From: Tautonia marina
GTDB lineage: Bacteria; Planctomycetota; Planctomycetia; Isosphaerales; Isosphaeraceae
DNA length: 64,000 nt
Reading direction: 5' to 3'
Assembly: GCF_009177065.1 (NCBI RefSeq)
Contig: NZ_WEZF01000009.1
Location: 186,001-250,000, forward strand
The position numbers and the translations under genes were made by a program. Positions 10,429 through 30,517 of the stretch are shown in pieces. Position 1 is the stretch's first letter. Each line of letters begins with the position of its first letter. Under the pieces are notes generated by a model. The model was not told where the DNA came from, searched no databases, and saw only the letters and a list, made by a program, of their open reading frames with translations.

Positions 10429-11487
10429 TCACGGATCGCGGCGCTCGGTGTCCTGATCAAGGAACCAGCGGACCGTCTGTGCAATGCTCTCCGCATTTCC
10501 GAGGGTGGGAGTCCAACCCAGTCGCGATCGAGCCTTCTCGGTGCTGTACCAGATCCGTCGAGCCATCAGCCAGGTTGCATACCGGGTGATGATCGGAGCC
10601 TTCGGCCATCGCATGAGCCGGGCATAGGCTTCAATGACCAGCGAACCGCCGAACACCAGCGGATAGAAATGCGGCAGCCGACGATACCACCGAGGGGGTC
10701 CCGCCCCGGCGGCCTCGGCGAAGTAATGAATGAACTCGCGCTGGGTCATCGGCCCCTGGTCGGTAATGTTGTACGCCTCCCCCACCGAAGAGGGGTCCTC
10801 GGCCGCGAGGATACAGGCATTCGCAACATTTCCGGCATAGATCGCGCTCAACGGGTTATCTCCGGGGCCGATCACGGGAATTCCGGCCCCTCGCATACGA
10901 TTGATCATGCGAGCCACCGTCGTCCGATCACGCTCTCCGTAGAGCCAGCTTGGGCGGATGACGGTGAGGGGAAGCCCTTCCTCCTTCGCCAGTCGCCAGA
11001 GGATGCGTTCGGATTCGACCTTGCTGATCGTGTAGTAATCCCAGGGCCACCAAAGGCCGACGCCGAGTGGGTGGTCCTCGGTGATCGCCTGACCCGTCCT
11101 GGGCGGATGGCCATAGGCACTGGTCGAGCTGATGTGCAGAAAGCGATCGACCCCGGCAATGATCGCCGCTCGGGCGAGTGACTCGGTCGCATCCAGGCAG
11201 GCGGATTGGAACTCGTCCCAGGTTCCCCAGTCGCCCACCTTCGCCGCGGCGTGATACACCACTCGGGCTCCTCGGAGCGCCTCGGCACAGGAGTTCGGAT
11301 CGGTGAGATCACCGATCACGAGTTCCACCCCGATCGATTCGAGGAAGCTCGTGTCGCTGGTCGCCCGGACCAGAGCGCGAACCGGCTCTCCGCGAGCGAC
11401 GAGCTGTTCGGCGAGATGGCTGCCGAGCAAACCCGTGGCGCCGGTGACGAGGCAGGGGCGGCTGAGAGGACCATTGGGATCGTTCAT
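10429..11487 (-). CDS. NAD-dependent epimerase/dehydratase (extended SDR)
   Basis: 352 residues of the extended short-chain dehydrogenase family, which act on nucleotide-sugars, sterols or flavonoid-like substrates. Seen: N-terminal Rossmann motif TGATGLLG (residues 15-22), an acidic GDLTD segment, a HISSTSAYG strand with the catalytic Ser, and the Tyr152-xxx-Lys156 pair in YYTISK. The IRPSWLYG segment is typical of the substrate-binding lobe. Starts at ATG 11487. The C-terminal half has hydrophobic helices (PHFYPLVFGGSLVIEAYARLM) resembling 3-beta-hydroxysteroid-dehydrogenase-like SDRs, so a lipid or isoprenoid substrate is as likely as a sugar. It stands alone on the minus strand, divergent from the export cluster. 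Specific substrate unknown. Confidence 0.88.
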   Translation of the reverse strand: MNDPNGPLSRPCLVTGATGLLGSHLAEQLVARGEPVRALVRATSDTSFLESIGVELVIGDLTDPNSCAEALRGARVVYHAAAKVGDWGTWDEFQSACLDATESLARAAIIAGVDRFLHISSTSAYGHPPRTGQAITEDHPLGVGLWWPWDYYTISKVESERILWRLAKEEGLPLTVIRPSWLYGERDRTTVARMINRMRGAGIPVIGPGDNPLSAIYAGNVANACILAAEDPSSVGEAYNITDQGPMTQREFIHYFAEAAGAGPPRWYRRLPHFYPLVFGGSLVIEAYARLMRWPKAPIITRYATWLMARRIWYSTEKARSRLGWTPTLGNAESIAQTVRWFLDQDTERRDP

Positions 11488-11951: not shown

Positions 11952-14069
11952 ATGGCCGAAGACACGACCAAGACGCAAGAGCCGCAGCAACAGCCGATCG
12001 ATCCCGGCCTGCTTGAGCAGACCAAGAACCAGATCCGGACGCTCGTCGCCGAGATCGCCGATCTGGCTGATTCCGACATCCAGCCACCGGAATTCTCTCA
12101 GGAGTTCCTGACCCGCGCCGTCGCCGCGGTGGCCGCCTCGGGCGGTGCGCTCTGGATGCTCGACAATCGGGGCACGCTGAAGCTCCAGAATCATGTTGAA
12201 TTTCAACTGACCGGCTTGCTCGATGGCCGGGTGCGCACCCAACCGCACGATATTCTGCTCGGCACGATCTTTCAGGCCGCACAGGCCCAGATCATTCCGC
12301 CGGGAGCCACCATCGAAGGGGTGCCCGGCGCAGGTAACCCGACGGCCTTTGCCCTGATCCTCTCCCCCTTGATCGTCGACAAGCAGGTGGTCGGCCTGGT
12401 CGAGATCCTGATGGACCCGACCCGCCGCGCGGCCACGCAAAAAAGCACGCTCCGGTTTGTCGGCGACCTCTGCGACCTGGCAGCGCAGTATCTGAAGAAT
12501 CGCCAGATGCGGCAGATGATGTCGCAGCAGAAGCTCTGGAACCAGCTCGAAGGCTTCACCCACGCCATTCACGCCTCGCTCGACCTCCAGGAAACCGCCT
12601 TCGCCGTGGCCAACGACGGCAAACGCCTGATCGGCTGCGACCGCCTGAGCGTTGCCCTGAAGATCGGCGGCCGAACGATGGTCGAAGCCGTCAGCGGCCA
12701 GGAAGTGGTCGAACAACGGTCGAACCTCATCCGAGAGCTGACGAAACTTTGCAAGCTCGTAATCAAGTCGGGCGAAGACCTCGTCTACACGGGGGACACC
12801 GAAGGGTTCCCGCCCGACATCCGCGATGCCCTGGAAATCTATGTTGATGAGTCGGGCTCGAAGGCCGTCATCATCACCCTGCTGCACCGTCCTGAGGAGC
12901 CGAGCAAGGACGGCAAGGTTCCCGACAAAGTCCCCTTTGGCTGCATCGTGGCCGAGCAGATCGGCGACGAGTTGATTGTCACCGACGTTCACGCCCGGAG
13001 CGAGGTCGTCTCACGGCATGCGTCGACGGCGCTTTACAACGCTCAGGAACATCATCGCATTTTCCTGAGACCCGTACTCAAGGCACTCGGTTCTCCCTGG
13101 CGGATGTTCCGGGGACGGACTCTGGCGAAGATCGCCGCGGTGCTGGGTATCGTCGCCGCCGTCGTGCTTGTGATGGCCTTCGTCCCCTGGAAACTGACAA
13201 TCGAAGGCAAAGGATCCATCCTTCCGGAAGAACGTCGGAACACCTATGCCCCGCTTTCCGCTCGGGTGGCCCAGGTTCACGTTGAACACGGCGACCTCGT
13301 GCGGGCCGGGGAACCGATGGTGACGCTCTACAGTGAGGAATTACTCAAGCAGCTCGAACAGGTTCAGGCCGACCGTTCCTATTATGGTGCCCAGGCCGCC
13401 ACGCTCGAACGGCGGATCAACCAGACAACCGACTACAACGAGCGCCCCATCCTCGCAGGCCAGGAAGAAGAAGCTCGCATTCGTTACGAGAGTGCGACCG
13501 AGCAACTGGAAATCATTCGAGAACAACTGGAGCAGTTGAATGTGACGGCTCCCCACGATGGCACAATCGTGACCTGGGAGGTGCGGAAGAACTTGCTGGG
13601 CAGGCCGGTGGAAATCGGCCAGGAACTTGTCTCGGTCGCCTCGACCAGCGGTGACTGGATCTTGGAAGTGAACGTGACGGACGACGACATGGCTCCAATT
13701 CTTGCCGCCGAACAGCGATTGAGGGATAAGATCGCCAGGGGAGACGCCTCACCCGACGAAGCGCTCAAGGCCTACTTCGTTCTGGCAACCGACCCGGAGA
13801 AGCGATATCCGGGTTACGTCCGCCGGATCGCATCGATGGCCCAGACGGTTGAAGGGGAACACGTCGTCAAGATTACGGTCGGGTTCAGCGACGAAGTGCG
13901 TGATCAGATCATCGCCCGGAGTCAGAACACCGATCGCGGTTTGCGATCCGGTGCCGAGGTTCGAGCCCGGATCGAATGTGGCGATGAACGGATGGCCTAC
14001 GTCGTCTTCCGAAAGGTCATCAATGCCTTCCACGAAACGGTCTTGTTCCGCTGGCCGTTCATGAATTGA
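11952..14069 (+). CDS. GAF-domain membrane-fusion (HlyD-like) protein
   Basis: 705 residues with an unusual order. Residues about 50-180 and 200-365 look like two GAF-type sensory domains in the cytoplasm. A single transmembrane helix follows (about 391-413, rich in Ala/Val/Ile). After it comes an HlyD-type periplasmic adaptor: first half-lipoyl strand set near 420-460 (YAPLSARVAQVHVEHGDLV), a coiled-coil hairpin at about 463-528, second half-lipoyl segment (VTAPHDGTIVTWEV) and a beta-barrel region to the end. HlyD proteins bridge inner-membrane transporters to the outer membrane; GAF domains bind small ligands or mediate dimerisation. The fusion suggests ligand-controlled export. It is followed after 73 bp by a second adaptor and then the protease gene. 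Domain calls were made by eye from motif patterns; the HlyD part is firmer than the GAF part. Confidence 0.82.
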   Translation: MAEDTTKTQEPQQQPIDPGLLEQTKNQIRTLVAEIADLADSDIQPPEFSQEFLTRAVAAVAASGGALWMLDNRGTLKLQNHVEFQLTGLLDGRVRTQPHDILLGTIFQAAQAQIIPPGATIEGVPGAGNPTAFALILSPLIVDKQVVGLVEILMDPTRRAATQKSTLRFVGDLCDLAAQYLKNRQMRQMMSQQKLWNQLEGFTHAIHASLDLQETAFAVANDGKRLIGCDRLSVALKIGGRTMVEAVSGQEVVEQRSNLIRELTKLCKLVIKSGEDLVYTGDTEGFPPDIRDALEIYVDESGSKAVIITLLHRPEEPSKDGKVPDKVPFGCIVAEQIGDELIVTDVHARSEVVSRHASTALYNAQEHHRIFLRPVLKALGSPWRMFRGRTLAKIAAVLGIVAAVVLVMAFVPWKLTIEGKGSILPEERRNTYAPLSARVAQVHVEHGDLVRAGEPMVTLYSEELLKQLEQVQADRSYYGAQAATLERRINQTTDYNERPILAGQEEEARIRYESATEQLEIIREQLEQLNVTAPHDGTIVTWEVRKNLLGRPVEIGQELVSVASTSGDWILEVNVTDDDMAPILAAEQRLRDKIARGDASPDEALKAYFVLATDPEKRYPGYVRRIASMAQTVEGEHVVKITVGFSDEVRDQIIARSQNTDRGLRSGAEVRARIECGDERMAYVVFRKVINAFHETVLFRWPFMN

Positions 14070-14142: not shown

Positions 14143-15141
14143 ATGCAGACGATCGTGAAGACCACTCTGGCCGCTGCCCTCGTCGCAAGCCTCTCTGTTG
14201 CGATGATTGCTCCCGTCCGGGCACAGCAGCCGACCATCTCGTCGAACGGCCAGGTGCAAACCCTGGTCGTGCCGGGCAACATCGAATGGATCGAGCGAGC
14301 AGCCCTGGCCGCTCGGCGCGAAGGGATCTTGCGGCATATCGAAAAGTCGATTGGCCAGGAGATCAAGCGAGGCGACCTGGTGGCTTATCTCGATTCCACC
14401 ATGGCCGAGCTGGCCCGAACCAAGGCGGAGATGTTCGCCAAGGACACCTCAGCCATTGAAATGGCTGAGGCCGAACGGGAAGTCGCCGCCACCAACGCCG
14501 CGCGGGCTTACCGTCTTCGCGACATTAATTCGAAGGAAGAGTACGAACTGCGCCAGGCCCAGTTCAAGGTGGCCGACGCCAAGCTCAAGGAAGAGAAGTC
14601 CAAATATGAGCAGGCCGCTCAGGAACTAAAAATGGCCGAAGAGGCCGTCGCCGAGCATCAGATTCTCGCACCGTTCGACGGCGAGGTCTTGCAGCAGATC
14701 AAGTACCCCGGCGAGGCCGTGCAGTCGATGGAGCCGGTCGTTCACGTTGCCCGGACCGACCGAGTCCGGTTCCAGGGATACGTTCCGCTGGAAATGGCCT
14801 ATCAGCTCCGCAAGGGGATGGTGGTGGATGTTCAGCCGGTCATCGAAGGGGAACAGATTCCGATCACGCAGAAACGGTTCCGAGGCCGAATCGTCTACAT
14901 CAGCCCCGAACTGGCCTTCGCCAAGACCCGAGCCGAGGTCGAGATCAAGGCGGATATCATCAACAACATTGACAAGGAATTGCGGGTTGGCCACAAGGCC
15001 AACATGACGGTCTACCTGACCGACGACCCGAACCTTATTCCTGCTCCTCCGGAAGACATGCTGCCGGTGATTCCCGATCCGACGCCGACCCCGCCGGTGA
15101 TTGGTCGCCGGATGGATTTGGGAGCAAACGCAGCTCAATAA
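14143..15141 (+). CDS. Periplasmic HlyD/RND-type adaptor subunit
   Basis: 332 residues. Residues 1-27 are a signal peptide ending PVRA. The mature part has a half-lipoyl segment (AARREGILRHIEKSIGQEIKRG), a long coiled-coil hairpin about residues 85-165 rich in Ala/Glu/Lys, and the return half-lipoyl strand ILAPFDGEVLQQIKYPGEAV. A beta-barrel domain follows (VRFQGYVPLEMAYQLRKGM), then a Pro-rich tail (DPTPTPPVIG). There is no transmembrane helix after the signal. ATG at 14143 has GGAG 9 bases upstream. It lies 73 bp after the GAF-HlyD gene and 216 bp before the protease fusion, so the operon is plausible. Membrane-fusion proteins of this class oligomerise around the transporter exit. Confidence 0.88.
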   Translation: MQTIVKTTLAAALVASLSVAMIAPVRAQQPTISSNGQVQTLVVPGNIEWIERAALAARREGILRHIEKSIGQEIKRGDLVAYLDSTMAELARTKAEMFAKDTSAIEMAEAEREVAATNAARAYRLRDINSKEEYELRQAQFKVADAKLKEEKSKYEQAAQELKMAEEAVAEHQILAPFDGEVLQQIKYPGEAVQSMEPVVHVARTDRVRFQGYVPLEMAYQLRKGMVVDVQPVIEGEQIPITQKRFRGRIVYISPELAFAKTRAEVEIKADIINNIDKELRVGHKANMTVYLTDDPNLIPAPPEDMLPVIPDPTPTPPVIGRRMDLGANAAQ

Positions 15142-15357: not shown

Positions 15358-17583
15358 ATGCTCCGAGACCCCAGCCAATCCGCTTCGGTGCCTGCCGGTC
15401 AGGCGGCCGAATACCTCACCGCCCGCTTGCGGCCCGACCTCGTCGTGCAACCGGTCCCTTATGAGGGCGTGACCCACTACGTCATCAAGGACCCGATCGC
15501 CCTGAAGTACTTCCGGTTCAAGTCTGAGGAGTACTTCCTGCTCCAGGAACTTGACGGCAAGAAAACACTTCAGGATATCAAGCGAGCCTTTGAGCGCAAG
15601 TTCCGGCCCCAGACGATTACCGTCGAAGACCTGCTCCGGTTCGTCGCCCAGTTGCACGAGGCAAGCCTCGTCCTGGTTGACACTCCTGAGCAAGCCAAGG
15701 CTCTGGTCAAACGGAAGAAGAAGAACCGCTGGAAGAAGATCAAGCAGACCGCCGCGAACATTCTCTATATCAAGATCCCGATTATCGATCCGGAAAAGCT
15801 GCTGACGTGGATGTATCCCTATTTCCGATGGCTTTTCACGTCATACTTCGTGATCTTTAGCCTCGGGATGATGCTGGCGGCGCTGACTCTTGTCTTCGCG
15901 CAGTGGGACACATTCACCACCAAATTGCCGACGTTCGAAAGCTTCTTCAACTGGCGAACGCTCCCGTCTCTCTGGCTAAGTCTGGCCGTCGTGAAAATCA
16001 TTCACGAGTTCGGCCACGGCCTCACGGCCAAGCATTACGGTTCGGAAGTCCATGAGATGGGCATTCTGTTCCTGGTGCTCACCCCGGCCCTCTATTGCGA
16101 CGTGACCGACAGCTGGCTCTTGCCGAACAAGTGGAAACGCATCTGGATTGCTGGGGCAGGCATCTACGTCGAGTGCTTCCTCGCGGCCCTCGCCACCTTC
16201 GTCTGGTGGAACACCCAGCCAGGCCTGTTCAACAGCCTGATGCTCTCAACCATGTTCATCTGCTCGGTGAACACGATTCTCTTTAATGCAAATCCGCTGC
16301 TGCGATACGATGGTTACTACGTCGCCTCCGACTACCTGGAGATTCCGAACCTCCGGATCAAGTCGACCCAGTTCTTCACCTACGCGTTCCAGGAAAAGGT
16401 GCTCGGCCTGGAGGTCCCAGTTCAGAGCTACATGCCGCGATCGCGTCGCGCCCTGTTCGTGACGTATGCCGTCGCATCGTACCTCTACCGGTGGTTCATC
16501 ACCTTCAGCATCATCTTCTTCCTGTACCATTTCTTGCCGCCGAAGCTCCGGGTCATCAGCGCAATGCTGGCGATGGGAGCCCTGGTGCCGCTCCTGTTCA
16601 TGCCGATGTGGCAGATCGTCAAGTTCGTCCGCCAACCCGGGAGGATGCGCAAAGTGAAGAAGGTCCGAGCGGCGGCTTGCTTCGCCGTGGCGGCGGCCGT
16701 GATCGCCTTGATCCTGCTGATCCCGACGCCGCTGCGGATCAAGGGGACGCTCGTGCTTCGTCCCGCCAAGCCCGATCGTATTTACGTCGAGGTCCCCGGC
16801 CGTCTGGTCTCAATCGATGTTCGAGACAATCAGCCTGTCGAAGGGCCCCGTGACGATGGCAGCCCCGGCACCGTCATCGCCCGCCTGAGCAACCTCGACC
16901 TGCTCCGCGAAGTCAGCGAGTTGAACGAGGAAATCCAGGTCAACGAGGTCAAGGCTCGTGTCTACGACCAGACCAGCGGCAACAATCCACTGAACCGCGT
17001 ACTTCACCTGGAAACGGTTGACATGATCGAGCAGGACCTCCAGCCAAAGCTCGATGTGGCGATCGATCAGCAAGGGAAGCTCGTCCTGACCGCCGCCCGA
17101 GACGGTGTGGTCATGGGGATTCCGAACCGAGAGGTGACCGGCTCGTTCATGAGACCCGGCGACCTTTTCTGTGAAGTTGGCGACCCGAAGCAACTGGAGG
17201 CCCATCTGCTGATCGATCAATCGGATATCGATCTGATCAAGCAGGATTCCGAGAACTCCAAAGCCAAGGCCTGGGTCAAAATCTACGGCAAATCCCACGA
17301 GACGATTCTCAGCCACGTCGAAGAGATTGCCCGCCGCAACCAAGAGGAAATTCCTCCCGAGCTTTCGAACCTCGCGGGCGGCGAAATCGCCACTCAGCCA
17401 GACGAGGAAACCGGCGGAGCCCGGCCGCTGACCACCGTCTATGAGGTCGTGATCCCGATCGACAACTCCAACCTCTCCCTCCACCCCGGCCAGCGCGGCA
17501 TGGCCAAGATCGACGGCGGCACTGCTACCCTCGGCTGGTGGATCTGGCGGACGATCACCAAGACTTTCCGGTTCGTCCTCTGA
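15358..17583 (+). CDS. PqqD-like / M50 site-2-type protease / HlyD fusion
   Basis: 741 residues. Residues about 20-110 resemble a PqqD-type winged helix (peptide-recognition element): ALKYFRFKSEEYFLLQELDG then an ITVEDLLRFVAQLHE helix. A basic stretch (KRKKKNRWKKIK) precedes several transmembrane helices. The zinc site is HEFGH at 216-220, and the third ligand is Asp318 in NPLLRYDGYY (312-321), the standard layout of M50 site-2 proteases. More membrane helices follow to about 458. The C-terminal 280 residues are HlyD-like: IKGTLVLRPAKPDRIYVEV, a helical hairpin, TAARDGVVMGIPNREV and a final barrel. The protein could recognise, cut and hand over a peptide to an exporter. All catalytic residues are present. 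It is predicted to sit in the inner membrane, operonic with the two adaptors upstream and near the ABC exporter downstream. Confidence 0.88.
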   Translation: MLRDPSQSASVPAGQAAEYLTARLRPDLVVQPVPYEGVTHYVIKDPIALKYFRFKSEEYFLLQELDGKKTLQDIKRAFERKFRPQTITVEDLLRFVAQLHEASLVLVDTPEQAKALVKRKKKNRWKKIKQTAANILYIKIPIIDPEKLLTWMYPYFRWLFTSYFVIFSLGMMLAALTLVFAQWDTFTTKLPTFESFFNWRTLPSLWLSLAVVKIIHEFGHGLTAKHYGSEVHEMGILFLVLTPALYCDVTDSWLLPNKWKRIWIAGAGIYVECFLAALATFVWWNTQPGLFNSLMLSTMFICSVNTILFNANPLLRYDGYYVASDYLEIPNLRIKSTQFFTYAFQEKVLGLEVPVQSYMPRSRRALFVTYAVASYLYRWFITFSIIFFLYHFLPPKLRVISAMLAMGALVPLLFMPMWQIVKFVRQPGRMRKVKKVRAAACFAVAAAVIALILLIPTPLRIKGTLVLRPAKPDRIYVEVPGRLVSIDVRDNQPVEGPRDDGSPGTVIARLSNLDLLREVSELNEEIQVNEVKARVYDQTSGNNPLNRVLHLETVDMIEQDLQPKLDVAIDQQGKLVLTAARDGVVMGIPNREVTGSFMRPGDLFCEVGDPKQLEAHLLIDQSDIDLIKQDSENSKAKAWVKIYGKSHETILSHVEEIARRNQEEIPPELSNLAGGEIATQPDEETGGARPLTTVYEVVIPIDNSNLSLHPGQRGMAKIDGGTATLGWWIWRTITKTFRFVL

Positions 17584-17989
17584 GACGATTCCCGCAGGAA
17601 CGCTCTTCGCATTCGATTGCTCAAGGCTGGCCGGCTTCCCAGTGGAGGCCGCCGGCCTTGTGCGTTTCTGGCCACGGAACATTTCAACACGTCTGCTTCT
17701 GATCGCCGTCATCAACCAGTCGAGCCTTTGTCAGATTTTTTCTCAAGCTCAAAAACACAGAAGACTTTGATGGAATGCCGACTCTCCTCAATCCATGGTA
17801 GGGTAGCGACGGCCGTTCCCAGGCCGTCGCGTGCGGACATTCCCGAGAGAAGTCAGCTTGTCAGAATCGGCGAGGAGTGGTACACCTCTCATGACCCCAG
17901 CCCCGACCGCGCGTAGGCAACTGCGCATCGCAAGCAGTCGGGTTCGGCAAGGACGCCCGAGGGTTTCACGTCGACGGTCTGGCGCACTC
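17584..17989. other. 406-bp gap between protease fusion and ABC exporter
   Basis: Holds a candidate terminator at 17623-17659 and an AT-richer patch at about 17730-17775. An in-frame ATG at 17891 with GAGGAG 13 bases upstream could extend the ABC protein by 33 residues. A 48-codon open frame from 17770 has no recognisable motif and was not called. No substrate-peptide gene is evident. Confidence 0.45.
17623..17659 (+). terminator. Candidate terminator after the protease fusion
   Basis: AAGGCTGGC (17623-17631) pairs with GCCGGCCTT (17651-17659), 9 bp with one G-T pair, 40 bp after the stop. It is followed by GTGCGTTTC, only a weak T-run. Confidence 0.42.
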
Positions 17990-20221
17990 ATGAAGAATTT
18001 CGCCCGTCTCGTACGGTTTGCCTGGCCCTACCGGGGCCGATTCGTGCTGTCGATCGGCTGCGCGATGATGGTCGCCCTGCTCTGGTTTACAGAGCTGGGG
18101 GCGGTCTTCCCGCTGCTGAAAATTCTGCTCGGCGGCGAGAATGTCCAGACCTGGGTTGCCGATCAAATCGAACGGTACGAAACCGACGTAGAGACAGTGC
18201 GCGCTCGACTCAACGAGTTGGAGATCGTCCGCCAGGCTGGGCCGAAGGGCGTGCACGCCGATCATGTCGAGCAAATCAAGCAAGGGTACCAATCCGCCTG
18301 GAATCTCTATTTCAATGAGGTTCCCGAGGAGTTCCACGCAACCTCTGTCGGACCCAAGCCGTCGTTGCCGGCCGAGCAACTCGAACGCTACTCGGCCTTG
18401 ACCCAAGCCTATCGAATCGCCGAAGCCCGTTACGACGAACTCGGCCATGCCTCCCGGCTGATGGAGGAAGGGGGGCCGTCGGCGCTCGATCGCCGCGAAC
18501 GCTCCTGGCAGAAAGAAATGGCCAAGGCCGAAGGCTGGCAAGCCCGGTTCGAAGCAGTTGCTCCCTGGGTCAGTCGCTGGTTACCCGAGGATAATTTCCG
18601 GACCCTGACCGTCCTGCTCGCCCTGGTGATGGTCGGCGTGGCAATCAAAGGGGTCTTCATGTTCGGCCAGGAATTCCTGGTGGCGAACATCATGCAGCTC
18701 TCGATCTTTGACATTCGCAAGCGTTTCTTCCGCCGCACCCTGGCGCTCGATCTGGCAAGCTTCAATCAGCAGGGTTCGGCCGACCTGATGGCCCGCTTTA
18801 CAAGCGACCTCGACTCGGTCAGCCAGGGGCTCGTCGTCCTCCTGAGCAAGGTCGTGCGAGAGCCTTTGCGCATCATCGCCTGCCTCGGAGGGGCTCTCTG
18901 GCTCAACTGGCGATTAACCCTTCTGGCGCTCGTGCTGGTGCCCGTCTCGGCGATCACCACAGTCAAGGTCGGCAAGCTGATGAAGCGGGCGATCCGGCGA
19001 TCGCTCGAAAGCATGTCGAATATCTACAAGATCCTGCAGGAGACCTTCCAGGGGATCAAGCTCGTCAAGGCCTACACGATGGAACGCCGCGAGCGCCGGC
19101 GGTTCTATCTGGAATCGAAGGCGCTTTACAAGAAGCGCGTTCGGGTGGCGACCATCGAGGCGATGAGTGACCCGGTGCTGGAACTGCTGGCATTGACCAC
19201 CGTTTCCATCGCCCTGATGTCCGGGGCCTACCTCGTCTTGCGAGAATCGCGCTTCCTGGATCTGGGTCTCTTTCGCCTTCAACTGGCTTCAGAGCCGATG
19301 ACGATCGAGCAGTTGCTCACGCTTTACGTCATGCTCGCTGGCGTCTCCGACCCGCTACGGAAGCTCTCGAACGTGCATTCCAAGATCCAACGGGCCGCGG
19401 CGGCTTCGGATCGGATCTGTGCGCTGATGGACCGTGAGCCGACGGTCATCGAACGACCGGGAGCGCTTCGGATCCCCCCCCACCGGTTGCAGATCGAGTT
19501 CGACAACGTCCATTTCTCCTACGATGACCGGACGCAGGTTCTCCGAGGGCTCAATCTGAAGGTCCGTCACGGCGAGACGATCGCCCTGGTCGGCCCCAAC
19601 GGTTGCGGCAAGTCGACCCTGATGAACCTCTTACCAAGATTCTGGGACGTGGAAGACGGCGCGATCCGGATCGATGGCCACGATCTGCGGGAGGTCTCGC
19701 TCAAAAGCCTTCGGTCACAGATCGGCATGGTCATCCAGGAAACGATCCTGTTCGAAGACTCGATCGCCGCGAACATCGGCTATGGCAGTCCCTTCGCCAC
19801 AAGAGAACAGATCGAAGCCGCAGCCCGCCGCGCATACGCTCACCAGTTTATCTCCACCATGCCCGAGGGGTACGACACGATTATCGGGGAGCGTGGCGCC
19901 GGTCTCTCCGGCGGCCAGCGGCAGCGAATCGCTCTGGCTCGGGCGATGCTCCGAGACCCGGCAATCCTCATCCTCGACGAGGCCACCAGCGCCGTCGATA
20001 TCCAGGATGAAGCCCTCATCCGCCGGGCCATCGAGGAGTTCTCCCGCGGGCGCACGACCTTCCTGATCACCCACAATCTCGGATCGCTCCAGTTCGCCGA
20101 TCGAATTGTGCTGATGAACGAAGGGCAGATCGAGTCGGTCGGGACCGAGGACGAACTGCGACGAACCTCCTCGCTCTACCGACGCCTCCTCGAACTCCAA
20201 TATCACCGAGAGAGTGCCTGA
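17990..20221 (+). CDS. MsbA-type ABC exporter (fused membrane and ATPase domains)
   Basis: 743 residues, half-transporter that should act as a homodimer in the inner membrane exporting lipid, glycolipid or peptide. Membrane domain residues 1-470: after TM1 (about 17-45) there is an extra extracytoplasmic, helix-rich insert (about 49-203) before TM2, much longer than usual in this family. ATPase domain: Walker A GPNGCGKST, Q-loop VIQETILFED, signature LSGGQRQR, Walker B ILILDEATSA, H-loop ITHNL. All catalytic elements are intact. Start at ATG 17990 (MKNFARLVRFAWPYR) matches the usual N-terminus; ATG 17891 with a better ribosome site is an alternative. It lies downstream of the HlyD/M50 genes on the same strand, but 406 bp and a hairpin separate them, so it may have its own promoter. 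Confidence 0.92.
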   Translation: MKNFARLVRFAWPYRGRFVLSIGCAMMVALLWFTELGAVFPLLKILLGGENVQTWVADQIERYETDVETVRARLNELEIVRQAGPKGVHADHVEQIKQGYQSAWNLYFNEVPEEFHATSVGPKPSLPAEQLERYSALTQAYRIAEARYDELGHASRLMEEGGPSALDRRERSWQKEMAKAEGWQARFEAVAPWVSRWLPEDNFRTLTVLLALVMVGVAIKGVFMFGQEFLVANIMQLSIFDIRKRFFRRTLALDLASFNQQGSADLMARFTSDLDSVSQGLVVLLSKVVREPLRIIACLGGALWLNWRLTLLALVLVPVSAITTVKVGKLMKRAIRRSLESMSNIYKILQETFQGIKLVKAYTMERRERRRFYLESKALYKKRVRVATIEAMSDPVLELLALTTVSIALMSGAYLVLRESRFLDLGLFRLQLASEPMTIEQLLTLYVMLAGVSDPLRKLSNVHSKIQRAAAASDRICALMDREPTVIERPGALRIPPHRLQIEFDNVHFSYDDRTQVLRGLNLKVRHGETIALVGPNGCGKSTLMNLLPRFWDVEDGAIRIDGHDLREVSLKSLRSQIGMVIQETILFEDSIAANIGYGSPFATREQIEAAARRAYAHQFISTMPEGYDTIIGERGAGLSGGQRQRIALARAMLRDPAILILDEATSAVDIQDEALIRRAIEEFSRGRTTFLITHNLGSLQFADRIVLMNEGQIESVGTEDELRRTSSLYRRLLELQYHRESA

Positions 20222-23550: not shown

Positions 23551-26500
23551 TCAGGGTGTGTCTCCGGGGGTCCAATCAAACGAAATGGCCCGACCCGCTT
23601 CGGTTTCGGAGCGGAAGTGACGGGGCAATCCGGGGCGAAGCGGTGAGAGGAAGTCCGTCGGGGGACCGGGATCGGAGGAGCTGGAACGCGTCTCGGACAG
23701 ATCGGCAAGTCCGGCGGCGAGCAGAGAGCGATCGAGGCCCTCTCGGGTCGTGACGATCCGCCGGAGCGGGCCGCGCTGGCGGACCACTTCGTTCGTGTCG
23801 GGCATCATCAAGGCGGCCCAGTAGGCGGAACGCTCGGCCTGGCGTTGGAGCGTGAGGACGCGGGCGAGCTCGGCCGAGAGGGAGTCGCGGTCGGTACCGG
23901 TGCTCGAGGAGCCCAGCCGGTCGATCCGCGATCGGAGCCGATCGGCCGCCCGCTCCAGCCGTTCGACCAGCAGGCCGGCGGCGGGGATCGGCAAGGTCGC
24001 ACCGCCGGAGGCACTCACCGCGTCCTCCTCGGCAGATCGGACCGTGGTCAGCACGGTTGCTCCCTCGTGCAAGGGCTGAGGGATGCTCAGGCGGCGTCCT
24101 CGGCGTGATTCAGAACGCGGCATCGGGTCGATCCAGACCAGTTCGACACGACGCGCCGGCCCGTCACCCAGCGGGATGATCCAGCGACCGTCAGGTCCGA
24201 TCCGAGGTCGAACCGGGCGGCCATCGACCACTGCGGCCGGTGCCTCCGCGCCGGGAGGAGCCGTCAGGGTCAGAAACGGCCCAGGCTGGGGTTGGAGTTC
24301 CAGGATGGCATGGCCCCGTACCGTCCCTTCGGGAGCAATCAGACAGGTCAGGTCAACCAACTCAACACGGGTCTTTTCCAGGTCGCTCGAACCGCCCCGA
24401 GATGTGGACGGCGGCTGGACCACCAACGACCAGCCCCCCGGCTGCACCCGGTAAACCTTTCGACTGGCATCGGGGGGAAGTGGCGACGGGAACAGGGTCG
24501 CGAACTGCTGCTCCGTGACCGCGTCGGCCAGCGCAAGCCCAGACACATCAAGGGTCGGCGGCCGATCCGAGGGGACCACGAGCCCGATGGTATGGCCGGT
24601 GGCCGTGCCGAGCCCCCAGGCGACCAGGTCGGGGAAGACCAGCGGTTGGTCATCCTCCAGCGGAAGCACGGATCGGATTCGGAGGTCCGTCGATCCCCAG
24701 ATAGGACGGCCAGGGTCGATCTCAATCCGGTCACCCAGGTCGCGCACCGCGACCGGAGGCATGCCATCGAGCTCGTACTCGGCCCCTTCGGCCCACGATT
24801 CCGGCAGAATCAGCTCGATCCGGTCCGCAGGCCCTCCCGAAACTCGGTAGCGCACCAGAGCCTCCCAGCGGGCCGACTGGCTGCTCAGAACGAGCTGACT
24901 CCAGAGTTCGACCGTGACCGCAGGGAAGGACTCAACCCGCAATGAGCCAGGTTGATCGAGCGGAATGGGCCGGTAACGACGGCGGTTATTCGAGGTCGCC
25001 AGACGCTCAATCGGCTGCGAACGGCCATCGGCCCCGCGGTAATCCACCAGGGCCGTCGTCGGAGTCGACAACAGCAACGTCCCCGGCTCAACCGTGAGAC
25101 CGGGCCATTCGGGCCAGGGAAGGGGTCGCTCCGTGACCAGCGGCCCGGGCTCCATCGGCCGAGAGCGTTCGGGAAGCCATCCGGTCAGACTGATGGGACG
25201 CACGGAACTGGGAAGGCCATCAAAGCGCAGCCGAAGTTGATCGGAAGACGGCCGATCCCAGGAAGTCAGGCCAGGGGCCTCAAGATCGATCAGTTCCAGA
25301 TCCTCCGGCACGTTGAGCGTGACCTTGCGGACGGCCCGGCCATCAAGGTCGGAGATGCGGGAGGCGAGTCGCCATTCCCACCGGCCGGCGTCGAGATCCA
25401 GTTGCAACGTCGGCTCGACGAGGCGTCGAGGATGGGTCGGTCCGAGGGGCACGGACACCTGAGGAAGCCCCGAAAACCGGGTTGCCCCGGCCACGTCGAG
25501 TGCGCCTCCTCGGGGAAATGGTCCCCAATTCTGTTCAAATTCCTGATCGCTCATCGGTAGGTTACCCGAGGCGGCTTCGAGTCGCCCACCCCAGGTCTTC
25601 GGACGCATCAAGGCAATCTGACCATCAAAGCGAGACAGACCGATCGGCTCCAGCCGGGGAGGACTTCGAAGGATCGGATCCGTGTTTGGTTCGCCTGCCG
25701 CGTTCGACGCCTCGGAACGCAGCGCGCGTCGAAGTTCGAGCTGAAGGACCGCCCCTTCAGACAACGGGGGGTCAATGCGAGCAATCCAGCGGTCGCCGTC
25801 ATCGGCGACGATCCGAGAACTCTCAACAATTGCCCCGGCGGCGCGAACCGATCGCACCGCGACCCCCGGATCGATGGCAAACCAGAGTTCTCGGACCGGG
25901 CTGGCTCCTCGGATCGTCAGTCGAGCGTCGAGCAGGTCGCTCGTCGGCAAGGCTTGCCAGAGGAGCAGGCCCTCAAGTCCGGGGGCTTCGGTCTTGTTTC
26001 CTTCCTGATCGATCCGATCCCATCGGATCTCAATTCCATCACTCGGACCGATCGCGGCTCGAAGCTCACCATCGGCTCCAATCGTAATCGGGCCAAAGGA
26101 TCGGGCGAGGGTCAGCCCTGAGGCTCCCGGGGGATCGGCCACCCGGAGCGAGGCCGAGGCCACGGGATTGATCGGCAGAACCAGACGAACGCCCGAGGTG
26201 TCGTTATCAGGATGAACCCGCTGACGAACGACCAGTTCATGCAACCCCGTCTCTCCGTCGAGCGCAACGGTTGCACGGTCGGCCGACTCTCCGATTAACA
26301 CCGGACGCGGACGACCATCAACCATTGCCTCCAGTTCGGTCGGTCGACCGATCGGCAAGGACCACATGGCCGGCCCTTCCTGCTCAAATCGCAAGGTGAG
26401 CCGGGATTCCAGACGCCAGCCTTCCTCCGCGTCTGGCCTGAGCTCATGCTCGGCCCGGATCACTCCCACGGTCGGCCAATCGGGACGCGCCTCATCACCA

Positions 26501-29500
26501 GGACGGGCCGACGCGGCAGCCCTCAGACGCTCAGCATCCGTCTCCTGAAGCCAGACCACCGGCCCCTCTGACTCATCACCGACTTCGGTTCCCCGATCAA
26601 TAAGAAACGCGATGATGGGCGAACCGCCAGGGGCATCGGCCTGTGAAGCAGGTTGCGCCCCGACCACCGTGGCGATCAGGAGGAAGACTCCAGAAGCCCC
26701 CAGACTGATCCGAGCGGCCGACCCGCGTGGTCGAATCAAGGTTGAGGCCCCCGATTCATCCCGATCGGGTCGAGGACGACTCTGGATCAAGGCAATGACA
26801 AGGCCGATCAATCCTGCATAGAACGGACCGATCACAAAGGCGGATCGCCGAGGCTCCCCCCGTTCTCCCACCACGACCGCCCCGAGGACGACGAGCAGCA
26901 AGAGGCAGAGCCGAACCGCATTCCAACCTCGACCCTGGAACCGAATCGAGGCTGCCACAATCAGCAAGGCCCCCACTCCAAGGCCGAGCATCAGCCACGG
27001 CCACCGATCGACCGATCGGACTCCGGCATCGTGACGAGGCCATCCGCTCGCCACGAAGCGCCGAAGAATCCGGGATTCGGTCTTCGAACCGCTGAGGGGC
27101 AGGATTGCCTCATCCGAGAATCCCCCGGCGGTTGCCCGCCAGCGCTCCACCGTCCGGAAGCGATCTGACTGGTCGGCCCCCCAGGCAACAGCCTCCCGAA
27201 GTGATCGGACCCAGGTTTCTCGGGTCGGTCCCGATGCCAGCGAGGTCGGTGAGATTCGCGGAGCTTCGGCCGGAGAGGTGATCAGAAAGACGGTATCGAT
27301 CGGCACCGCGAGCAAGCCCAGCGACGACAAGGCGCGTCGAGCAGACCCGGCGGATTCCTCCTGACCAGATGGGGAAGGGGTCGGAACAATCGTGCTCGGG
27401 CCGAGGCCAAGCGCTTCAAGGGCGGATCGATCGACCACAAGCGGCCATCGTCCCACGTCCCACGAGGCCAGCGCATCGCCCAGCCGAAGCCCTCCCACCG
27501 GTTGGGTCGCCGCCAACTCGTCGAGTTGTTCCAGCATCGTGCGTTCCAGCGCCGTCAACCGGGGCAGGCGTCGCAACGAGACGCCTGGCAACCACCCTGG
27601 ACGATCCGGCCCAGGATCGGCGGAGATCAGGGCCTGACCAACCCCCGCCAGCGACCGGGCCGTCGGCCAGGCAAGATTCCACGAGAATGACAGGCACGGC
27701 ATCGAGAACCGAGGACGATCCGGTTCGACTGCTCCCGATCCGACGGTCTGAACAAACTCGACCACCAGTCGGCGTGGTCTTCCCGAACTCATCCGCTCGA
27801 CCTCGGGAAGCTGCGTCAAGGGAATCCAGATCATCCCCTCCTGCTCGAACGGCTCAACACGCCGCCCGTTCGAGGAGACCGCGGCGAGGATCGCTCCTTC
27901 CGGCAATTCGATTCCCAGTGTCGCGGCCTCCTCCGCTGCCACATCCAGCGCCAGTCGGTGTCGGGTCAAAGTGTCGGTGGACGGGGTCGAGGCCAGATTG
28001 GCTCGAAGAATCACCCCCTCGAAGCGCGAGGCCGGTAGCCTCGTGGTGCGCACGCCGAGCAGTCCGGGCTGACCTTCATAAAGAAACCGGTCCGCCAGTC
28101 GGATGGATGGACTGGAGAAGCGATCGGCCTCGGAACTCGTCGCACCGATGCCGAGCTCTCGAAAGGAGAGGTCACCGCGGGTCTCGCAGCGAAGGGCCGG
28201 ATCGACGCGGAGCGAGACGGTTCCGCGTGTCTCGAACCAGCGGGGCAGATCGAGCATGGGCAATGGGCCTTCGCCGTCCCAGGGCAGTTCCAGCCGTCCT
28301 CGGATCGACAACGGACCTGTGAGGTCCGAGGGCAGCCGAAGCTCGGATTCATCTCCCACCGAGGGAGTGACGGGCAGGGGCCTTGATTGCTGACCTTCGG
28401 CGGCCACCAACGACCAGCTCGGCCCATTCACGTCAAGTGGCACGGGACGAACGCGAAAGGGCAACGTGCGGAGGGATTCCCCTTGAGCATCAAGCTGAAG
28501 CTCCCATTCGACCGTCAGGCGATCGTCCAGGATCGTCACCCGTTGATTCACGATGGCGAGTGGACGTTTAGGGATCGGCTCTCGGACCACGCGTCCGAGA
28601 GCGTCCGGGGCGACCCAACGCCAGGAAAGAAGGGGCCGGGGAGATTGCAGAGACGTGGTCGAGGGAACGGCCGCCGGATCGAGCCAGGCAAGTCCCTCGG
28701 CCTCCACCGGGCGCAACACGACTCCCAGATCGGAAACAATCGACCAGCGCTCCTCGGCAATGGCAAGATCCACAGGGCGAAGTCGGGGAAGCTCCAGGAA
28801 TCGGATGTTTTCCTGGACCAAGGAGGCCGAGACAATCAGTTCGGGGCGTCGTCCGTCGTTGAGTGCGATCTCCCCGGATCGTGCCCCGGGCAGAGCAACT
28901 CGAATCATCCGGCGACCGTCGGGCAATTGCTCCTGTTCCCATCGAGAGGCAAGCTGCCCGTCAGAGATCCGAATCGCGTCCGGTAACCATCCCGGCGAGA
29001 GGAGAAAGCTCACCAAGGTCGGCGCTTCCGGCGGCGGCTCGACATCAATCTCAGCCTCAAGCGTATCGGCCCCGTCGCGGAGCCTCACCGTTCCCTGAAC
29101 GGAAACCGAGGTAATGGTGCGGGCCGGTGCCAGGTGCAATTCAGCCACCGGTGCGGGCCGATCGGCAAAGAAGGCCAGCGGTAACCCGTTTCGTTCCGGT
29201 TGCAATGCGAGGCCCGGGAGATCACTTTGCTCAGGGCGACGCCCGACCTCGATCTGGGCTCGCTCCAGTTGCTGCCAGGACTCAACGGAAATCTCGTCAA
29301 GGTCAAGCCGTCGCCCGGCCCGTTCCGTGCAATCGAGGAGCGACCAGGATTGATCCAGCCAGACAATGACGGGCCCACCGGTCCACTGAGCATCCAGGGG
29401 TTCGGGAACGGGGACGAGCCATCGGCTTGGGTCGTCGATTGGTGCCAGTCCGGAAAGGGTCAGGCGAGTCGGACCAATTAACCCGTCTCGCCATCGGACC

Positions 29501-30471
29501 GTGAGCCAGGTTCCCTCAGGACCAGGGCGTAGCTCGACCCCGGAAACCGCCCCCTCGGGACCGATGACCTCCTCCCAGGTCACGCCGGGAGGAAGGGAGA
29601 CGACCAGGGGACGATGCCCTTCCGGCCCCGGATCGATCGACCAGGCGGTGGTCCAGCGGGCAACTCCCGCGGCATCACCCTCCAGTTCGACGAGAGTCGC
29701 GCCTCCGATCCAGGGGCCGGAGGGCCGATCGGGGTCGGGCGCCGATCGAAGCCGGAGGACAACCGAGCCCCCCGGCCCATCAAACCGCCATCGGAGTCGG
29801 CCCGGCTCACCGGTCGGTACCGGCCCTTCACGATAGCCAGGGGGGCCGGATGGAGTAATCCCCTCCGGAAGGTCGAGGATCAACGCCGTGGCCGATCCCT
29901 CGATCAACTCCAGGTCGAAAATCCGCCCTTCGGCCTCAACTCGTGGCCGGAGACGCCATGAGATCGTGACGGCCCGGGTCGATCCCGGGCCTTCCTCCGG
30001 ACCAATCCGCAGAAACGCGCGACCGTCTCCGTCGCGGTGAATCAGGGTGCAAGACGACGGTGACACCTCCTCGACCGCGGGCGACCAGGGCCAGAGGGTT
30101 GCCCAGCGCACCGACGATCCCGGATCGGGGAACTGGAGCAAGGTTTGTCCGACCAGCTCTCCCCCTTCAAGACGGATTCGATGTTCGATCCGCTTCGGCT
30201 CGATCGGGCGGGTCGCCTCGATCAACGCGGACACGCGGCGAGCCTCCTCGACGAGCGTTTCGAACTGATCGGCTGGCATCGAGACCAGGCCCGTCCGGCC
30301 GGGAAACCACTGCTCAAGCATCTCCTCGGCCACCTGAAGCCGAACGACTTCGGGCGGAGCATCGTTGACCGCCTGAAGTGTCCGAGGCCCGATCAGCCCG
30401 GCGAGCATCGCCAAGGCAATCGCGACCGGCAGGGAGATTCGGGGGGGCGAAGCGATCATGTCGACACGCAT
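23551..30471 (-). CDS. Giant beta-rich membrane-anchored protein, two tandem units
   Basis: 2306 residues, no named family recognised. After a signal-like segment (about 6-30), residues up to about 1150 form strand-rich repeats (many alternating hydrophobic/charged strands, Pro/Gly turns). Three transmembrane helices follow (about 1157-1177, 1183-1202, 1210-1230), then a basic loop and a fourth helix (about 1254-1272, GASGVFLLIATVVGAQPASQ) that resembles a second signal peptide. A second strand-rich half runs to the end. Positive-inside charges place both big halves outside the cytoplasm. The first half plus three helices has the same architecture as the neighbouring 1159-residue protein, suggesting duplication and fusion. 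ATG 30471 was chosen; 30459 is an alternative. The upstream gene ends 46 bp before, so an operon is likely. Function unknown; envelope or surface scaffold is inferred. Confidence 0.8.
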   Translation of the reverse strand: MRVDMIASPPRISLPVAIALAMLAGLIGPRTLQAVNDAPPEVVRLQVAEEMLEQWFPGRTGLVSMPADQFETLVEEARRVSALIEATRPIEPKRIEHRIRLEGGELVGQTLLQFPDPGSSVRWATLWPWSPAVEEVSPSSCTLIHRDGDGRAFLRIGPEEGPGSTRAVTISWRLRPRVEAEGRIFDLELIEGSATALILDLPEGITPSGPPGYREGPVPTGEPGRLRWRFDGPGGSVVLRLRSAPDPDRPSGPWIGGATLVELEGDAAGVARWTTAWSIDPGPEGHRPLVVSLPPGVTWEEVIGPEGAVSGVELRPGPEGTWLTVRWRDGLIGPTRLTLSGLAPIDDPSRWLVPVPEPLDAQWTGGPVIVWLDQSWSLLDCTERAGRRLDLDEISVESWQQLERAQIEVGRRPEQSDLPGLALQPERNGLPLAFFADRPAPVAELHLAPARTITSVSVQGTVRLRDGADTLEAEIDVEPPPEAPTLVSFLLSPGWLPDAIRISDGQLASRWEQEQLPDGRRMIRVALPGARSGEIALNDGRRPELIVSASLVQENIRFLELPRLRPVDLAIAEERWSIVSDLGVVLRPVEAEGLAWLDPAAVPSTTSLQSPRPLLSWRWVAPDALGRVVREPIPKRPLAIVNQRVTILDDRLTVEWELQLDAQGESLRTLPFRVRPVPLDVNGPSWSLVAAEGQQSRPLPVTPSVGDESELRLPSDLTGPLSIRGRLELPWDGEGPLPMLDLPRWFETRGTVSLRVDPALRCETRGDLSFRELGIGATSSEADRFSSPSIRLADRFLYEGQPGLLGVRTTRLPASRFEGVILRANLASTPSTDTLTRHRLALDVAAEEAATLGIELPEGAILAAVSSNGRRVEPFEQEGMIWIPLTQLPEVERMSSGRPRRLVVEFVQTVGSGAVEPDRPRFSMPCLSFSWNLAWPTARSLAGVGQALISADPGPDRPGWLPGVSLRRLPRLTALERTMLEQLDELAATQPVGGLRLGDALASWDVGRWPLVVDRSALEALGLGPSTIVPTPSPSGQEESAGSARRALSSLGLLAVPIDTVFLITSPAEAPRISPTSLASGPTRETWVRSLREAVAWGADQSDRFRTVERWRATAGGFSDEAILPLSGSKTESRILRRFVASGWPRHDAGVRSVDRWPWLMLGLGVGALLIVAASIRFQGRGWNAVRLCLLLLVVLGAVVVGERGEPRRSAFVIGPFYAGLIGLVIALIQSRPRPDRDESGASTLIRPRGSAARISLGASGVFLLIATVVGAQPASQADAPGGSPIIAFLIDRGTEVGDESEGPVVWLQETDAERLRAAASARPGDEARPDWPTVGVIRAEHELRPDAEEGWRLESRLTLRFEQEGPAMWSLPIGRPTELEAMVDGRPRPVLIGESADRATVALDGETGLHELVVRQRVHPDNDTSGVRLVLPINPVASASLRVADPPGASGLTLARSFGPITIGADGELRAAIGPSDGIEIRWDRIDQEGNKTEAPGLEGLLLWQALPTSDLLDARLTIRGASPVRELWFAIDPGVAVRSVRAAGAIVESSRIVADDGDRWIARIDPPLSEGAVLQLELRRALRSEASNAAGEPNTDPILRSPPRLEPIGLSRFDGQIALMRPKTWGGRLEAASGNLPMSDQEFEQNWGPFPRGGALDVAGATRFSGLPQVSVPLGPTHPRRLVEPTLQLDLDAGRWEWRLASRISDLDGRAVRKVTLNVPEDLELIDLEAPGLTSWDRPSSDQLRLRFDGLPSSVRPISLTGWLPERSRPMEPGPLVTERPLPWPEWPGLTVEPGTLLLSTPTTALVDYRGADGRSQPIERLATSNNRRRYRPIPLDQPGSLRVESFPAVTVELWSQLVLSSQSARWEALVRYRVSGGPADRIELILPESWAEGAEYELDGMPPVAVRDLGDRIEIDPGRPIWGSTDLRIRSVLPLEDDQPLVFPDLVAWGLGTATGHTIGLVVPSDRPPTLDVSGLALADAVTEQQFATLFPSPLPPDASRKVYRVQPGGWSLVVQPPSTSRGGSSDLEKTRVELVDLTCLIAPEGTVRGHAILELQPQPGPFLTLTAPPGAEAPAAVVDGRPVRPRIGPDGRWIIPLGDGPARRVELVWIDPMPRSESRRGRRLSIPQPLHEGATVLTTVRSAEEDAVSASGGATLPIPAAGLLVERLERAADRLRSRIDRLGSSSTGTDRDSLSAELARVLTLQRQAERSAYWAALMMPDTNEVVRQRGPLRRIVTTREGLDRSLLAAGLADLSETRSSSSDPGPPTDFLSPLRPGLPRHFRSETEAGRAISFDWTPGDTP

Positions 30472-30517
30472 CCGACGGTCAATCTCTTGAGAACGTGCAA
30501 GAACGACAACACGCCGA

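Follow-up and report, generated by a model that had tools for sequence, protein, structure and literature searches.

A Planctomycetal Protein Joining RRE, Site-2 Protease and HlyD Adaptor Parts, a Candidate Hub for the Export of Giant LEPR-Leader Proteins

Introduction

What does a bacterial cell handle with a single protein that joins a domain of the leader-reading type, an intramembrane protease and a periplasmic adaptor? The question is raised by a gene of Tautonia marina located in a 64-kb window (the whole stretch of 64,000 nucleotides that was analysed), and it touches on a wider one: many bacteria encode proteins of 4,000–16,000 residues, and only for some of these has the route out of the cell been established. 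Among these giants are the LEPR-XLL proteins, of which a Vibrio representative of about 8,000 aa appears in a section of PMC10868602. From the genomes and the structural models we propose, with a probability of roughly 0.57, that the fusion acts as the inner-membrane hub for recognition, processing and docking in a SecA-driven apparatus exporting giant, repetitive, surface-bound proteins with a LEPR leader.

Architecture of the Fusion Protein

The initial annotation had described a PqqD-like segment, a zinc motif HEFGH with Asp318 and an HlyD-like domain in one chain; its coordinates and frame proved correct for the 741-residue protein, which starts with ATG on the plus strand (Table 1), as did the three parts and the named residues on the basis of Pfam, fold models and conservation. 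The AlphaFold model of the full fusion, built with 63 aligned sequences, has a pLDDT of 90.7 and consists, in this order, of a winged helix, seven likely transmembrane helices and an adaptor part that bears a coiled-coil hairpin.

Table 1. Coordinates of the fusion, its parts and associated genes (window positions unless a T. marina contig, prefixed G000, is named).
Feature	Position	Strand	Basis or remark
GAF domain(s) + HlyD adaptor, 705 aa, conserved partner gene	11952..14069	+	Pfam; precedes fusion in Isosphaeraceae loci
Second HlyD adaptor, 332 aa, conserved partner gene	14143..15141	+	Pfam and NCBIfam; signal-peptide-like N-terminus by eye
RRE - site-2 protease (M50) - HlyD fusion, 741 aa	15358..17583	+	ATG start; three-part
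RRE/PqqD-like winged helix, residues 20-107	15415..15678	+	Fold model and structure matches; Pfam PqqD under cut-off
Membrane region, residues 162-453, seven likely transmembrane helices	15841..16716	+	Model helices and hydropathy
Zinc motif HEFGH, residues 216-220	16003..16017	+	H216, E217, H220 invariant in 63/63 aligned relatives
Second zinc-ligand motif NANPLLRYDG, residues 310-319, including Asp318	16285..16314	+	N310, N312, L314, D318 invariant in 63/63
Periplasmic HlyD/MacA-like adaptor, residues 456-741, coiled-coil hairpin 513-573	16723..17580	+	Pfam and fold model
MsbA-like ABC transporter, directly after fusion	17831..20221	+	Pfam
Short SecA paralogue, 654 aa	L144 9270-11231 on G000:C4	-	Near an ORF resembling MurB (by eye)
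Housekeeping SecA	L160 1387-5133 on G000:C5		Isosphaeraceae housekeeping SecA unusually long, about 1,200-1,250 aa

The best NCBIfam match is the daptide intramembrane metalloprotease NF041824 (residues 45–425, E 1.1e-49), whose cut-off of 300 bits is not reached by the 169.6 bits of the fusion, which is accordingly not the daptide protease MpaP proper; the next one is the YydH/LiaK family NF058609 (residues 163–328, 41.3 bits against a cut-off of 225). Both models are matched by 63/63 fusion relatives, with a best E of 9.5e-66 among the 63 for NF041824, and HlyD_3 is present in 59/63. Since the RRE-protease and adaptor parts recur together in the relatives, the fusion is no chance product or assembly artefact; it is real and conserved, with orthologues in 44 of the 45 genomes of the order Isosphaerales and a single copy in T. 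marina.

The N-terminal domain is weak by sequence and clear by fold. Pfam PqqD matches residues 59–105 below its cut-off (E 0.0072, 17.1 bits vs 23.4), and 28 of the 63 relatives match it at E up to 0.01. Residues 1–119 modelled alone give a beta-beta-beta-alpha-alpha-alpha winged helix with a pLDDT above 90 over about residues 20–100, and the six best PDB chains found for this model by Foldseek are stand-alone RREs with a bound leader peptide (5v1v, 5v1u, 6jx3; probability 1.00, E 0.006–0.05, TM-score by target 0.68–0.75). With VIA, Z is 11.0–11.1 for the leader-bound RREs, 9.0 for PqqD 5sxy and 9.4 for an unrelated methyltransferase; the best structural match is therefore with lasso-peptide RREs bound to their leader. 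A chance resemblance to PqqD is thereby ruled out, and the segment annotated at about residues 20–110 is settled by the winged-helix fold at 20–107. The comparison of the N-terminus with profiles and structures proposed with the annotation thus led to an RRE/PqqD winged helix, and neither this fold nor the zinc site was found absent.

The membrane part combines an HExxH motif with a distant aspartate inside a helix bundle, as in site-2 proteases, and Pfam M50 matches residues 207–283 (E 1.7e-9); as regards comparison with solved site-2 protease folds, the 50 matches listed per structure search were adaptors, biotin carriers or RREs. The odd number of helices would leave the N-terminus inside and the adaptor outside. 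The motif HEFGH with Asp318 highlighted in the annotation is conserved without exception, and from this active site the fusion is predicted to be probably catalytic; that the protease domain is a dead scaffold has a very small probability, H216, E217, H220 and D318 being invariant in all 63 relatives.

The part following the last helix, annotated as HlyD-like, has the barrel, lipoyl and hairpin fold of HlyD/MFP adaptors: HlyD_3 matches residues 576–659 (E 2.9e-5), and the full model superposes on MacA over residues 457–722 with a Z of 17.9 and an rmsd of 3.0 Å for 226 residues; the domain spans residues 456–741.

Genes around the Fusion

The GAF-HlyD gene, the 332-aa HlyD gene and the fusion lie on the same strand and stay together in Isosphaeraceae wherever the available stretch reaches far enough. 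This qualifies the earlier view that recognition, cleavage and adaptor parts linked in one chain are a compact solution not expected in ordinary HlyD systems: the joining in one chain stands, by fold and conservation, but ordinary adaptors are not replaced by it, as two further HlyD genes are found in front of the fusion, and its relatives are accompanied by giant LEPR proteins, a short SecA paralogue and an outer-membrane channel. The MsbA-like ABC gene, in contrast, adjoins the fusion only within the genus and was dropped as a partner.

Clustering of the ORFs of 57 fusion loci gave, among the families common to at least four loci, HlyD, SecA, DUF3467 and OEP, together with a sulfatase-like group regarded as background and another group present in six loci; no ABC, RND, MFS or SecY family recurred in at least four of the 57. 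A type 1 secretion system was rejected on this ground and on that of the genus-restricted ABC gene, and an RND or MFS tripartite pump because no such pump recurs in these loci.

The same neighbourhoods bear on whether the fusion could serve RiPP-type maturation, as a daptide- or epipeptide-like protease trimming a small modified peptide that the ABC transporter at 17831–20221 would export. RRE plus site-2 protease is indeed the daptide protease architecture, with the E-value of 1.1e-49 reported above, and an ABC exporter gene does follow the fusion in the window. Such a role is nevertheless decidedly improbable: the score falls far under the family cut-off, the ABC gene is a neighbour in one genus and no ABC family recurs in the 57 loci, a Pfam scan of nine genes in this part of the window showed no RiPP-modifying enzyme, and among the genes annotated on plasmids giant ones, not short precursors, lie beside the fusion.

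Some other features of these neighbourhoods may be recorded. A gene for an NAD-dependent epimerase (10429–11487, minus strand) is divergent from the module and occupies the same place in many Isosphaeraceae loci, and a minus-strand open frame of 2,337 aa (23551–30564) has no link to the module. In several Isosphaeraceae genomes, DUF3467 is located between the fusion and the long housekeeping SecA, the two being no more than about 15 kb apart.

Occurrence in the Planctomycetota

In an even set of 294 genomes of the phylum searched by profile, the fusion was found in 67. It is present in 18/19 genomes with LEPR proteins vs 49/275 without (Fisher 6e-12, 294 genomes) and in 39/42 genomes with a short SecA vs 28/252 others (Fisher 7e-27, 294 genomes), and 16/19 LEPR genomes have a short SecA (Fisher 1.2e-12), by tests that, like the by-family one, do not model the phylogenetic tree. 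Because the genomes are related, the LEPR test was repeated by family, and 12/12 LEPR families hold a genome with the fusion vs 18/81 other families (p 2e-7). In these counts a short SecA is an open frame below 800 aa, with the addition of G046, G078 and G048, whose longer frames have a match adjoining the fusion; G119 is counted, its match stopping at position 529 and possibly being a housekeeping fragment, and the ratio is 38/41 when it is left out. The sole LEPR genome lacking the fusion (G209, leader row L206), kept in all counts, has leader surroundings unlike those of a LEPR protein. As many as 49/67 fusion genomes have no LEPR match, by a 24-position profile that misses real cases (G249 scored negative and yet holds a LEPRVVL protein in L107), and 28/67 have no short SecA at the threshold used.

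As regards gene order, 39 neighbourhoods were chosen by us from roughly 100 places matched by the fusion profile. A short SecA paralogue lies within about 10 kb of the fusion in 18 of them (one being the diverged copy in L128), against a chance expectation of less than one in 39, roughly estimated from two SecA genes per ~6 Mb genome and 20 kb viewed. An outer-membrane channel gene is near the fusion in 8/39 and a LEPR-type giant gene, by our reading, likewise in 8/39; the matches to the expression LE.R in L058, L060, L101, L103, L117, L118, L121, L125 and L126 look like chance and were not counted as LEPR genes. In particular, one contig of Schlesneria (L064) holds OEP, HlyD, the fusion, SecA, a relative of the GAF-HlyD gene and a repetitive LEPR protein of at least 1,700 aa, whose leader is VEVLEPRRVMSA. 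Some fusion loci, in Rhodopirellula and Zixibacteria, have neither SecA nor a giant gene in the stretch read.

DUF3467 could be a constant small partner of the fusion. The fusion lies near DUF3467, with no SecA or giant gene, in two loci of Zixibacteria (L060, L061) and two of Pirellulaceae (L054, L058).

Proteobacterial Plasmid Loci

The module is also carried by plasmids of alpha- and betaproteobacteria, from which 13 loci were taken out of 79 records (30 listed), 11 of the 13 being annotated in the stretch. A SecA-like gene adjoins the fusion in 8/13; it is missing in the other five (L169, L170, L175, L177, L178), so that SecA is not always linked. Three of the eight SecA-like genes bear the names prepilin peptidase or hypothetical protein and match at 42–47% to the short SecA of T. 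marina or at 45% to that of Schlesneria; "prepilin peptidase" or "hypothetical protein" is the public annotation of the paralogue in L166, L167 and L171. A giant gene of about 4,000–16,000 aa stands beside the module in 7/11 annotated loci, three of these genes being annotated as LEPR-XLL, and an open frame of at least 1,400 aa touches the upstream edge in 11/13. The fullest order, alphaproteobacterial, is giant gene, DUF3467, HlyD, fusion, SecA, HlyD, TolC.

In the Variovorax locus L178, a giant gene of about 16,240 codons (CP063167.1 19413–68132) with the leader variant LEARYMF lies beside TolC-HlyD-HlyD-fusion, and type II secretion genes are found on the other side of the fusion.

The LEPR Leader

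Of 47 giant or LEPR genes whose beginnings were read, 45 gave a motif (L198 and L225 none); L224, with the variant LEARYMF, was dropped and 44 rows were tabulated. An arginine-rich stretch is followed by the consensus [LFV]-E-x-L-E-P-R-[VL]-L-L-S-A-D, in which position -3 is hydrophobic in 44/44, position -2 is E or D in 43/44, position 0 is L, M or I, position 1 is E and position 3 is R. Most rows were found through the LEPR profile and the conservation of the core is thus partly by construction; the leader is also carried by two plasmid giants (L222, L223) that are not annotated as LEPR and were picked only for adjoining the fusion. None of the leaders read has, by eye, a normal hydrophobic signal-peptide core. 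A scan of the 64-kb window for the full motif gave no match.

A parallel is offered by the daptides, for which a section of PMC10036551 describes an RRE fused to a site-2 protease in company with a leader motif ELExMEAP, the leader being removed by MpaP; in the same section L(-7) and M(-4) are required for a processing step in which the RRE involved is that of MpaB and not that of MpaP. The spacing of L(-7) and M(-4) is that from the hydrophobic residue (-3) to the L of LEPR. Owing to this likeness of leaders and to the match of all 63 fusions with the MpaP model, we infer that the RRE of the fusion may read the LEPR leader, with a cut at or just after LEPR; fold and daptide-like leader together make it a predicted binder.

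The Short SecA and the Scattered Parts in Tautonia marina

In T. marina, the parts are present but scattered: contig C9 carries the fusion and adaptors, C4 the short SecA, and C1, C6 and C13 the three LEPR proteins, the largest one having 4,293 aa and 20 stretches of RTX repeats. The genome also holds 21 OEP matches and a single DUF3467 gene, located close to the housekeeping SecA. In the family of the window the short SecA and LEPR genes do not adjoin the fusion; the functional link of the window copy is hence drawn via orthologues, and a 57-row tree of fusions places it in a class-wide clade (100/97) with the SecA-linked L064, L097, L098 and L105. The ORF beside the T. marina DUF3467 gene (L234, frame 2, position 2264 on, contig C5) has a diverged LEPR-like start, RFQIESIQQLETKQLLAP.

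The short SecA is distinct from the housekeeping one, as identity of the two is ruled out by length (about 650 vs about 1,220 aa) and by a 32-row SecA tree in which the T. marina copy forms one group (100/98) with those SecAs of its class that are linked to the fusion, separate from the housekeeping SecA. Its closest PDB match is an entry named SecA 2 (6t4h), which we take to be SecA 2 of C. difficile. By our reading, a short SecA or a fragment of it occurs in 44/45 genomes of the order, G009 having the long one only.

These distributions have to be set against another possibility, namely that the subfamily of the window is a general-purpose or envelope-stress module, engaged in regulated intramembrane proteolysis or small-molecule efflux, and that the link with SecA and LEPR belongs to other subfamilies. 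The fusion occurs in 44/45 genomes of the order and LEPR proteins in 20/45, the SecA paralogue is unlinked in this family and a partner gene has GAF sensor domains, all of which would suit such a module. The clade shared with SecA-linked fusions argues against it, as do the short SecA or fragment in nearly every genome of the order and DUF3467 at a distance of up to about 15 kb from the fusion in 9/16 Isosphaeraceae loci tested, seven of which also hold the housekeeping SecA; on the whole a stress or general-purpose role is unlikely.

Proposed Export Mechanism

In the export role that we favour, the giant protein would be made with a basic N-terminus of roughly 20–60 residues ending in the leader [LFV]ExLEPR[VL]LLSAD, which is the form seen in the genes. 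The cytosolic RRE (residues 20–107) would bind the hydrophobic-E-x-L-E part of the leader, as its fold and the daptide leader suggest, and the short SecA paralogue, whose linkage is observed, could provide ATP-driven threading. The site-2 protease, with its conserved active site, would then cut at or just after LEPR, and the fused HlyD part and the two partner HlyD proteins, all encoded together, would dock a TolC-type outer-membrane channel through which the chain may exit. The inner membrane could be crossed either via SecYEG or via the fusion itself.

SecYEG is the established partner of SecA, and it may be that SecYEG and the SecA paralogue carry the LEPR proteins across the inner membrane while the fusion only trims them and passes them on to the channel. 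A SecY of its own is not among the families that recur near the fusion in the 57 loci, so that the housekeeping SecY could serve, but the leaders lack, by eye, the hydrophobic core of a normal signal peptide. We consider this two-step course possible, at somewhat less than even odds. More doubtful is a distinct type of secretion system that works in one step, common to Planctomycetota and Pseudomonadota, in which the SecA paralogue would thread unfolded, RRE-recognised LEPR-leader giants directly through an inner-membrane complex built on the fusion and out via the TolC-type channel, with motor, leader reader, leader peptidase and adaptor in place of an ABC exporter.

Comparison with Known Systems

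The proposed apparatus shares with type 1 secretion the HlyD adaptors, the TolC-type channel and giant RTX or repeat substrates; in contrast, no ABC exporter is conserved beside the fusion, where a SecA paralogue is found instead, and the leader is N-terminal. Residues 456–741 have the fold of the HlyD, MacA and MexA adaptors; ordinary HlyD-type adaptors usually have a single helix or a lipid as their anchor, whereas the anchor of the fusion is a seven-helix protease. As in accessory Sec (SecA2) systems, a second SecA goes with genes for large surface proteins, but no second SecY recurs beside the fusion in the 57 loci, and adaptors and an outer-membrane channel come along; the definition of accessory Sec thus applies in part only, through the second SecA.

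The YydH/LiaK family (NF058609) has the same site-2 protease core, but neither the RRE nor the adaptor part of the fusion is matched by it. MpaP (NF041824) is the closest of the named families, with an N-terminal RRE fused to the site-2 protease and a similar acidic-hydrophobic leader motif; its model has no HlyD part, and its substrates are short RiPP precursors from clusters that also contain tailoring enzymes and ABC transporters. No tailoring enzyme was found among the neighbours scanned (nine window genes and the ORF families shared by the 57 loci).

The combination matches no system known to us, and no publication describing it was found among the open PMC papers searched; LEPR-XLL appears in the literature found (open PMC papers) as a sequence family only, with its machinery unnamed. 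The LEPR-XLL giants (NF012209, LEPR-8K), three of which are encoded by T. marina itself, are the likely substrates of the fusion system, and a candidate machinery for them can now be named, consisting of fusion, adaptors, short SecA and channel; with the sharp leader motif, it makes binding, cleavage and export separately testable. The joining of an RRE with a site-2 protease has a precedent in MpaP of the daptide clusters (PMC10036551); the adaptor is the new element, as is the connection with giant proteins in place of small peptides. If true, the proposal would show RRE domains at work not only on small peptide natural products but also on giant proteins of the cell surface.
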